In this document: in pieces, positions 14,741-17,519 of the stretch
How positions within the stretch are numbered: the first letter of the stretch is position 1
How the letters are laid out: each line of letters starts with the position of its first letter
From: Actinomycetota bacterium
GTDB lineage: Bacteria; Actinomycetota; Acidimicrobiia; Acidimicrobiales; Ilumatobacteraceae
Assembly: GCA_026393575.1 (NCBI GenBank)
Contig: JAPKZX010000076.1
Location: forward strand, 1-36,397
Reading direction: 5' to 3'
Length of the DNA: 36,397 nucleotides
Notes under the pieces: generated by a model
Told to the model about the DNA's origin: nothing
The model's input: only the letters and a program-made list of their open reading frames with translations
The model's database searches: none
Translations under genes and position numbers: made by a program

Positions 14741-15610
14741 ATGACCGATTGGCAAGACCTCACTCGACGCGCATCATTTACGTCGCACCAATTTCTAGGT
14801 TGGATCTTTTGGGATCCACGTGCCAAAGAAAACTTGGCGGCACTTGGTGTTCCTGATGGCTTAGGCCACTACATCATCAATCGCAGTGCGCCGCTTGCTA
14901 TTGCCGGACCTGAAGCAGTGTTCGCAGCCTTCTACACAATCAAACGCGAGTTCATTCAGTTTTGCCTCAACCACGCATCGCCACATATCAATAATTGGCA
15001 CGATGTCACGGTTGCTCGCGATGCAGCTGTTCGTGCTGGGCTCGAAGAGATGACGCCGCAGATTATTGAACCATTTGGTTTGCTCGCCGAAGATCTTTGG
15101 AAGACAGTTGATGCCATTCCTGCAAGTGGGCGCGTTCTTTTTGCCACGCATAAATCATGGCCACGACCTACAGACCCATTGATGTCTGCATGGAATGCGC
15201 TGAACTGCATTCGCGAATGGCGCGGTGACACGCACTTCGGAATCTTGTTGAACGACAACATTGATGTTGTAGAAGCTGGGCTCTTGCACGATGCATGGAT
15301 GGGTTACCCCAAGGAATGGATTCCTCGCAGTCGTGGCGCCGACGACGTAGAAATTACTGCTGCACTCGAGAACTTGTCAGCACGAGGATTTGTAACAGAT
15401 GGTGTTGTTAACGATGAAGGCGTCGCATACCGCGTAGAACTGGAACGTCGCACTGATGTCTTGTGTGAAATTCCATGGCGACATTTCGGCGAAGCGAACA
15501 CATTGAAGTTGTTGTCGATACTTGAGCCTGTTGGTGAGCGGTACGTGCAACACATCAACGAGACCGCGGGCGATAACTGGATGCCAGCCGCACGCGCACG
15601 TCGTCACTAA
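14741..15610 (+). CDS. SCO6745-family (SalK-like) protein, function unknown
   Basis: A 289-residue soluble protein. The sequence follows the actinobacterial SCO6745/SalK family. An N-terminal FWDPRAKENLAALG...GHYIINRSAPLAIAGPEAVFAAFYTI segment leads to a central DPLMSAWNALNCIREWRGDTHFGILL block, which is the family's most typical stretch. A C-terminal winged-helix-like part contains ALENLSARGFVTDGVVNDEGVAYRVELERRTD. No enzymatic role is established. The C-terminal part could bind DNA or mediate dimers. The stop TAA shares bases with the TAG of the convergent DUF2071 gene (CTAA, 15607-15610). The family call is from memory of the pattern. Confidence 0.72.
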   Translation: MTDWQDLTRRASFTSHQFLGWIFWDPRAKENLAALGVPDGLGHYIINRSAPLAIAGPEAVFAAFYTIKREFIQFCLNHASPHINNWHDVTVARDAAVRAGLEEMTPQIIEPFGLLAEDLWKTVDAIPASGRVLFATHKSWPRPTDPLMSAWNALNCIREWRGDTHFGILLNDNIDVVEAGLLHDAWMGYPKEWIPRSRGADDVEITAALENLSARGFVTDGVVNDEGVAYRVELERRTDVLCEIPWRHFGEANTLKLLSILEPVGERYVQHINETAGDNWMPAARARRH

Positions 15611-16344: not shown

Positions 16345-16382
16345 TCGGAATGGAATCCTTGTCACGGTGGTTGGATGACGGT

Positions 16383-16814
16383 ATGGCTCGTTACGTGACA
16401 ACTATTCCTTCATCAAAATCCCCAGCTGAGGCATTTGCATATATGGCTGACTTACGCAACTTTGCAGAGTGGGATAAAGGAATCATCCGCGTGGAACAAA
16501 TCACGGGCGACGGGGCCGGCCTTGGCACAGTTTTCGATATCACAGTGAAAGGATTTGGCGGACAAAACTCTGTCTTGCGTTACGAGACAACTGAATTTGA
16601 TTCCCCCACCAATGTTTTGGTGAAGGGTAAGAACTGGATGTTTACATCAATTGATCGAGTCACTGTTACGCCAACTGCAACAGGCTGCGATGTCACTTAC
16701 GACGCAGTACTCACTGCAAACCTGATTGTGTGGCCAATGAATATCTTGCTTGGTCGCATCTTTGACAAAGTGGGTGACGTTGCTACTCGCGGTTTGAAAA
16801 AGGTTCTTGCCTAA
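16383..16814 (+). CDS. SRPBCC (START-like) polyketide cyclase/dehydrase-type protein
   Basis: A 143-residue helix-grip fold protein that would enclose a hydrophobic ligand. It starts MARYVTTIPSSKSPAEAFAYMADLRNFAEWDKGI, a standard SRPBCC opening. It continues with GLGTVFDITVKGFGGQNSVLRYETTEFDSP and ends in the long C-terminal helix (IFDKVGDVATRGLKKVL). The ligand is unknown. The frame is open from ATG 16350, and the TATAAG box there would allow an 11-residue longer leaderless form. ATG 16383 is preferred because it matches the usual N-terminus of the family. The stop TAA overlaps the TAG of the convergent zinc-ribbon gene. Confidence 0.82.
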   Translation: MARYVTTIPSSKSPAEAFAYMADLRNFAEWDKGIIRVEQITGDGAGLGTVFDITVKGFGGQNSVLRYETTEFDSPTNVLVKGKNWMFTSIDRVTVTPTATGCDVTYDAVLTANLIVWPMNILLGRIFDKVGDVATRGLKKVLA

Positions 16815-16975
16815 GGGCAACCAAGACCGTGCAAGTTTGCACACTCTCTACACAACCATGCTTTGCCGTCTGCAGTACTCCATGCAGTTGCAAAAGGTGA
16901 ACCGCATGACATGCAGTCATGTTTTTCGTTTAGTTCAGGTCGAACTTGAAACTGCGGCACCTTGTCATCGGACAT
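16811..16975 (-). CDS. Small zinc-ribbon protein (54 aa), unrecognised family
   Basis: A 54-residue frame that reads MSDDKVPQFQVRPELNEKHD, then CMSCGSPFATAW, then ADGKAWLCRECANLHGLGCP. Two CxxC knuckles, Cys21/Cys24 and Cys42/Cys45, are 17 residues apart, the layout of a zinc ribbon. A further Cys53 and His49 sit near the end. A TGA directly upstream in frame means the ATG at 16975 or a later codon must be the start; GAGG lies one base upstream, rather close. It is followed 19 bases upstream by the VOC gene on the same strand, so the two are probably co-transcribed. Its stop overlaps that of the SRPBCC gene. Function is unknown; a nucleic-acid or protein-binding adaptor is possible. Confidence 0.72.
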   Translation of the reverse strand: MSDDKVPQFQVRPELNEKHDCMSCGSPFATAWSTADGKAWLCRECANLHGLGCP

Positions 16976-16994
16976 ACCTCAACTTTAGTGGCAT

Positions 16995-17519
16995 TCATTT
17001 ACCAGCAGTGGCGTAGTCGGTAATTGACTCGGCACTCGCTCCTGCTCGGTAGCGCAAGACGAGTTCATCGAAATTCACATCAATACCAATTGGGTTCGCC
17101 GCGAACAGTGGACCAGACATGAAAGCATCAGCCTCATTCATAGACATTGCATCAACTTGGGTTTCAACTTGATTGCCATCGGGGTCGCGGTAATACGCAG
17201 ACAATGTCATGCCGTGATTGATAGTCCAATAGGGAGATATTCCTTTTGCTTTCATGCGCTCATATTGATCAAAGAGATCGTCGAGCGATGCATAAGTAAA
17301 CGCAAAATGCTCCATTCCTTCTGCCGTTGCCGATCGAGGTTCCAGGTTTGGAAAATTCGCAATTGCAATCCGGTGATGCTCATCGTCATACGACAGAAAC
17401 GATATGAAATCGTCTCCGTGACGCACTGCGCCATCTAGAAAGTCCACCCACCAGGCCACCATCTCCTTGTATCGCGGTGACTTCAATACAACATGTGCGA
17501 ACTTGATTGGCGAGGCCAT
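16995..17519 (-). CDS. VOC-family (glyoxalase/extradiol dioxygenase-like) protein
   Basis: A 174-residue vicinal-oxygen-chelate protein built of two beta-alpha-beta modules. Likely metal ligands are His9 (KFAHVVL), His71 (MEHFAFTY) and Glu119 (GNQVETQ), the pattern of single-domain extradiol dioxygenase-like members. The C-terminal ~45 residues (MSGPLFAANPIGIDVNFDELVLRYR) match a tail common in biphenyl-diol dioxygenase relatives. The substrate is unknown. The start ATG has AAGGAG (17526-17531) six bases upstream. It is divergent from the FAH hydrolase gene, and the zinc-ribbon gene follows it. Confidence 0.87.
   Translation of the reverse strand: MASPIKFAHVVLKSPRYKEMVAWWVDFLDGAVRHGDDFISFLSYDDEHHRIAIANFPNLEPRSATAEGMEHFAFTYASLDDLFDQYERMKAKGISPYWTINHGMTLSAYYRDPDGNQVETQVDAMSMNEADAFMSGPLFAANPIGIDVNFDELVLRYRAGASAESITDYATAGK

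Follow-up and report, generated by a model that had tools for sequence, protein, structure and literature searches.

Small proteins built around a CxxC finger are a well-known kind, and the cysteine spacing of the protein considered here recurs in several described systems. The cysteines of DksA are spaced C-x2-C-x17-C-x2-C, and in DksA/TraR proteins an N-terminal helix or coiled coil reaches into the channel of RNA polymerase. GATA fingers have the same cysteine spacing, and a basic tail after the finger contacts DNA, while the domain TIGR04272 (CxxC-x17-CxxC) shares the spacing by its name. Two folds are relevant to proteins of this sort: the treble clef, composed of an N-terminal CxxC knuckle, a beta-hairpin and a helix bearing the second CxxC at its start, and the classical zinc ribbon, composed of two knuckles and a beta-sheet with no helix after the second CxxC. 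The window, meaning the whole stretch of 36,397 nucleotides analysed here, carries a gene for such a protein between two enzyme-like neighbours, and the features referred to throughout are as follows.

16811..16975, minus strand: gene, stop included, for a 54-residue small C4 (plus C53) protein, predicted to be treble-clef-like (sequence, conservation, models)
16814..16915, minus strand: 34-residue core C21-P54 (C-x2-C-x17-C-x2-C-x7-C-P, then stop), with C21, C24, C42, C45, A46, G52, C53 and the stop position kept in 84/84 genomes
16976..16994, minus strand: gap of 19 bases from the VOC stop to the ATG (sequence)
16350..16814, plus strand: SRPBCC (Polyketide_cyc2) gene, convergent (Pfam; convergent neighbour in 26/42 related loci)
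16995..17519, minus strand: VOC/glyoxalase-fold gene, upstream, an incidental neighbour (Pfam; comparison of 42 loci)

The first-pass annotation had not recognised the family of the small protein, and in line with this no Pfam or NCBIfam model reached its cut-off; neither the family nor its fixed Gly-Cys-Pro end has a name in the libraries searched, and we found nothing in the literature pairing this lineage or class with a zinc ribbon, treble clef or smORF. The nearest NCBIfam lead was HVO_2901 (NF041915; E 0.0038, 17 of 80 bits, below cut-off), and DUF7573 (PF24458; E 0.00094, 19.5 of 30.2 bits) likewise stayed below its gathering cut-off. Like the window protein, both are very small, whether as proteins or as domains, and have two CxxC pairs, but they belong to another domain of life, DUF7573 being of haloarchaeal origin. 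PHROG 54, a DksA/TraR-type zinc finger, was matched at E 3.9e-4, with 20 of 65 members at E <= 0.1. The C-x2-C-x17-C-x2-C finger is present in both DksA/TraR and the small protein, but the latter, unlike DksA/TraR, has just 20 residues before the finger, with no helix predicted there, and ends at Gly-Cys-Pro. For TIGR04272, 5 of 34 members matched at E <= 0.1 (best 0.0061), and the window protein had no match at E <= 1. ArfGAP (PF01412) shares the pattern W-x-C-x-E-C-x3-H with the small protein in alignment, and 27 of 34 members matched it at E <= 0.1 (best 0.00037); the window protein itself scored 17.6 of 28.7 bits over profile positions 10-43 of 117, under a third of the domain, and the wider profiles A3 and A4 did not list ArfGAP among their PDB matches (alignment A4 is without one of the 66 distinct cores, at a contig edge). 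Lesser leads were phrog_1895, for which no function is given (2 of 65 members, best E 2.9e-5), and ribosomal eL43 (9 of 34 members, best E 0.0087). PDB matches to PRDM9 came from short repeated C-R-E-C pieces, were not listed with the wider profiles and were set aside, and an anti-phage role was rejected, as the window protein had no match in PADLOC.

A conserved gene and its distribution

The 54-codon frame lies on the minus strand, with its ATG at 16975-16973 and its stop codon, TAG, at 16813-16811. An in-frame TGA stands two codons 5' of the ATG, a weak Shine-Dalgarno-like GAGG lies one base from it, and the TAG overlaps, tail to tail, the TAA of the SRPBCC gene (16812-16814). The protein contains the motif C21-x2-C24-x17-C42-x2-C45. 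Both flanking genes score above their Pfam cut-offs (SRPBCC, PF10604, 54.0 bits, cut-off 27.4; VOC, PF00903, 47.5 bits, cut-off 20.6). The first-pass annotation had already described the extent of the frame, the two CxxC pairs 17 residues apart, the in-frame stop just upstream, the stop meeting the convergent gene and the SRPBCC and VOC flanks, and each of these holds; the strand had been left unstated.

The motif alone is not beyond chance. The window contains one ATG frame of 40-80 aa with CxxC-x12-22-CxxC against a mean of 0.21 in 200 dinucleotide shuffles, and 39 of the 200 shuffled windows contain at least one. Because comparable frames are not rare in shuffles, the case for a gene rests on conservation, which is far beyond chance. 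Cores were gathered from genomes already matched by profile or tblastn search, 79 from the family and 5 from elsewhere in the order. Their selection used ungapped similarity scoring in which the first or third motif position had to be a cysteine, and the stop played no part in it. In all 84 genomes, C21, C24, C42, C45, A46, G52 and C53 are kept and a stop follows directly after residue 54. P54 is kept in 81/84 (Asn in two, Ser in one), so that the chain ends in Gly-Cys-Pro in 81/84, and the same end followed by a stop is found in three further members of the order. Other core positions are nearly as constant (G37 in 82/84, T34 in 79/84, W32 and L41 in 77/84 each). The invariant fifth cysteine, C53, and the fixed C-terminus are new observations, absent from the first-pass annotation. 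Upstream of the core, the open frame runs from 11 to 687 residues across the 84 genomes (one contig-edge case aside), and the long examples are probably chance read-through in GC-rich DNA.

Selection points the same way. For the window and 41 of the 42 loci of the public genome collection, pooled pN/pS is 0.21 (pS 0.78, pN 0.16), with one of the 43 sequences, L055, left out since its matched stretch ends before the stop; the contig of L055, as L015, ends in Gly-Cys-Pro and a stop. The other five reading frames are not kept open, as stops interrupt them in 13 to 28 of 42 sequences. It is clear from these results that the frame is a real and strongly conserved protein gene under purifying selection, as had been proposed, with the frame and both CxxC pairs retained among relatives, the opposite of the outcome that the first-pass annotation had named as refuting it; that it is a chance open frame without a product is, despite the frequency of comparable frames in shuffled windows, vanishingly improbable given the 84 conserved cores, the pN/pS value and the stops in the other frames, and we reject this explanation.

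A tblastn search with the protein matched 80 of 200 family genomes at E <= 0.01, the weakest matches including fragmentary ones, and a profile search matched 79 of 221 genomes at E <= 1e-4, once per genome and spread over 10 of 27 genera; second, weak matches in G053, G133 and G142 (E 0.001 to 0.005) are absent at that threshold. Among the same-genus genomes listed, 24 of 32 carry the gene. The widest profile matched 15 of 347 genomes in the order, six in the family and nine in other families (one of the nine, G1054, over 21 positions only), and in a sample of the phylum 7 of 346 matched, four in the family and three elsewhere in the order. Earlier, narrower searches gave 9/198 for the order, 11/247 for the class and 10/396 for the phylum, three short or unlike matches outside the order being set aside in the last of these. 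The outer matches L081-L084 (E 9e-5 to 1e-3; three outside the order) were also set aside, L081-L083 because they are without the C-x2-C-x15-19-C-x2-C pattern and L084 because its pattern, though present, lies in a long frame not ending at Gly-Cys-Pro. Most of the 42 loci come from records titled as Ilumatobacteraceae, Acidimicrobiaceae or Actinomycetota metagenome assemblies. The gene is common to a group of mostly uncultured actinobacteria and rare in the rest of the order. The 142 of 221 family genomes without a profile match at E <= 1e-4 are soft absences, as many of these genomes are incomplete and the searches scored only part of the initial candidates in many genomes. Some same-genus genomes that are 96-97 percent complete also have no match, and the gene is therefore probably dispensable in some lineages. 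A phage or plasmid origin was rejected, as phage and plasmid records gave no match and none of 26 pattern matches in viral contigs was confirmed.

The finding is genuine but modest. It adds a strongly conserved small-protein family without a name to these mostly uncultured actinobacteria, and a profile made from the gathered cores would let annotation pipelines name the family. The five-cysteine core and its exact Gly-Cys-Pro end also lead to sharp, testable predictions.

Predicted fold and candidate functions

The first-pass annotation called the protein a zinc ribbon, and the predicted models argue for a treble clef instead. The model of the full-length protein has a mean pLDDT of 76, and AlphaFold2 modelled a 38-residue core, from 65 sequences, with a pLDDT of 90.2; in the core model the cysteines are at 5, 8, 26 and 29, with strands at 14-18 and 21-25 and a helix at 27-32. 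Because both models start the helix within the second CxxC, the core is predicted to have the knuckle-hairpin-helix order of a treble clef rather than the helix-free arrangement of a classical zinc ribbon. The closest structure is that of a type II thymidine kinase (2qqe; Z 4.2, 2.0 A, 34 residues), in which the zinc module is part of an enzyme, unlike the stand-alone small protein, and the likeness shown is structural, to a common small arrangement. Further neighbours of the core are RING, B-box, GATA, ZZ and ribosomal-subunit chains, and the best neighbours, the kinase included, are mostly small metal-site modules going by their names; the matches are weak, Foldseek giving none with E <= 0.001. 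As such short folds resemble one another, these matches show arrangement and not ancestry.

We infer that C21, C24, C42 and C45 probably hold one zinc ion. The CxxC pairs are no proof of this, since in Haloferax volcanii 5 of 14 micro-proteins predicted to be zinc fingers, similar in appearance, did not bind zinc (PMC11241148), and the study lists HVO_2901 with 0 zinc.

Our preferred reading, held tentatively and at somewhat less than even confidence, is that the protein is a stand-alone adaptor or regulator in which a structural metal site supports the binding of a protein partner via the helix and the fixed Gly-Cys-Pro end. As far as sequence tells, it would be a cytoplasmic mini-protein, in which the four cysteines would hold a single zinc in a treble clef of knuckle, beta-hairpin and short helix, preceded by a variable and probably flexible N-terminal tail. 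The C-terminus is the likely working part, because it is free, fixed and equipped with a spare cysteine, in contrast to the variable N-terminus; the working surface would most likely be formed by the helix together with Gly-Cys-Pro and would dock a protein partner, and the C53 thiol and the terminal carboxylate, both free, may form part of the partner contact or of a thiol switch. The core has a net charge of -2 to +2 (mean -0.25) and the whole window protein one of -2, and, unlike the basic surface of a nucleic-acid finger, this near-neutral core speaks weakly against nucleic-acid binding. It is the fixed C-terminus together with the near-neutral core that leads us to favour a protein-binding adaptor or regulator.

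That the protein is instead a small nucleic-acid-binding zinc finger, a regulator of transcription or translation resembling GATA or a ribosomal protein and contacting DNA or RNA through its helix, is possible but unlikely. A GATA finger has the same cysteine spacing and a treble-clef fold, GATA and ribosomal-subunit chains are among the structure neighbours (GATA structure 4hca, Z 2.6, 33 residues, 2.7 A), and the best PDB matches of the widest profile, all weak, are GATA (E 0.021) and ribosomal eL37 (E 0.059). However, the scores are weak, the core is neutral to slightly acidic, and the chain stops 9 residues after C45 in 84/84 genomes, leaving no room for a GATA-like basic tail. A precedent for a small zinc-finger regulator is the haloarchaeal Brz (PMC2253796).

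Another reading, which we regard as distinctly unlikely, makes the protein a thiol or cofactor sensor in which the zinc site would serve as scaffold and the penultimate C53 of its Cys-Pro end would be reactive or ligand-binding, as a disulfide switch, a persulfide or a heme ligand like that of Cys-Pro heme regulatory motifs. A C4 site needs no fifth cysteine, and C53 (84/84) and P54 (81/84) always stand at the very end, both of which would fit such a role. The motif is, however, two residues long, Asn or Ser replaces the proline in three genomes, and none of the genes tested is a stable neighbour suggestive of heme or redox sensing. A specific version seems to us very improbable: a sensor confined to this lineage, with a structural zinc finger displaying Gly-Cys-Pro, whose penultimate thiol would respond to redox state or bind a cofactor (heme, for example) and which would signal by protein contact, in effect a C-terminal Cys-Pro switch on a zinc scaffold.

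The neighbourhood of the gene

The VOC gene lies on the same strand as the small gene and 19 bases upstream, so that the co-transcription proposed by the first-pass annotation is possible in the window; a stable link is not seen, however, as VOC is the nearest upstream gene among those tested in just one of 42 loci (L039), and we reject it as a general partner. A sister locus, L031, has aligned DNA 89-94 percent identical to the window and carries TetR and FAD monooxygenase genes between VOC and the small gene; there, the monooxygenase frame runs 11 bases into the start of the small gene. The window has neither of these two genes (L031:6006-8011) at the corresponding position (16976-16994), and a search of the rest of the window's genome, 82 percent complete, did not recover the monooxygenase. 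Among the genes tested, the nearest upstream is the monooxygenase in 10/42 loci (L031, L033, L037, L040, L041, L042, L045, L048, L049 and L055), TetR in 4/42 (L034, L043, L044 and L047) and an oppositely oriented FAA hydrolase in 3/42 (L032, L036 and L046). Other genes intervene in L035, the upstream flank of L038 is short, and the remaining 22/42, most of which belong to other genera and several of which have a short upstream flank, show none of monooxygenase, TetR, VOC or FAA hydrolase upstream; no relative of the window's VOC gene was found in them.

On the downstream side, SRPBCC is the convergent neighbour in 26/42 loci, and 14 of the other 16 are also without the whole block; in three of these, for example, MFS and RmuC genes adjoin the small gene. 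In other genera, the loci carry MFS and RmuC or isochorismatase genes as neighbours. Neighbour calls in GC-rich genomes are unreliable, because the longest frames there are often false. The upstream genes vary while the small gene stays, and there is therefore no fixed operon partner. Membership in one of the neighbouring catabolic enzymes, as a partner subunit of VOC, SRPBCC or the FAD monooxygenase, would agree with the frequency of the convergent SRPBCC gene and with the 11-base overlap in L031, but we consider it very improbable: SRPBCC is on the opposite strand, the small gene persists where at least one of VOC, TetR and monooxygenase is missing upstream (for example in the window, L032, L036 and L046) and beside the unrelated neighbours of other genera, and the window's genome, at its 82 percent completeness, yielded no monooxygenase. 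As an adaptor or regulator, the small protein would not be tied to its VOC or SRPBCC neighbours.

The core also forms the C-terminus of a larger in-frame protein in two single genomes, its tail still free. It ends a SnoaL_4 protein at L095:5541-6194 and a DUF402 protein at L096:6317-7036, the latter in a one-contig genome; the SnoaL fusion scored 27.1 bits with DUF7573 (cut-off 30.2). Searches of five relatives for each fusion did not recover it, and both may be accidental stop losses.

Several further observations concern the surroundings of the gene. In eight same-genus genomes without it, a DUF2071 relative occurs in four, as five copies, none with an SRPBCC match in the adjoining stretch examined. 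The SRPBCC protein of the window (16350-16814) scored 54.4 bits with NF047960, an Rv0910 family toxin model, below the cut-off of 100. Two records, CAMDBY010000005.1 (L041) and CAMDLK010000013.1 (L046), are titled Bifidobacterium breve and have the gene order of the window's genus; the titles look wrong. The window also encodes, at 14741-15610, an HTH_67 / SCO6745-family protein that passes both curated cut-offs (211.6 of 27 bits and 169.6 of 120 bits), and its gene belongs to the block kept by most loci of the genus.
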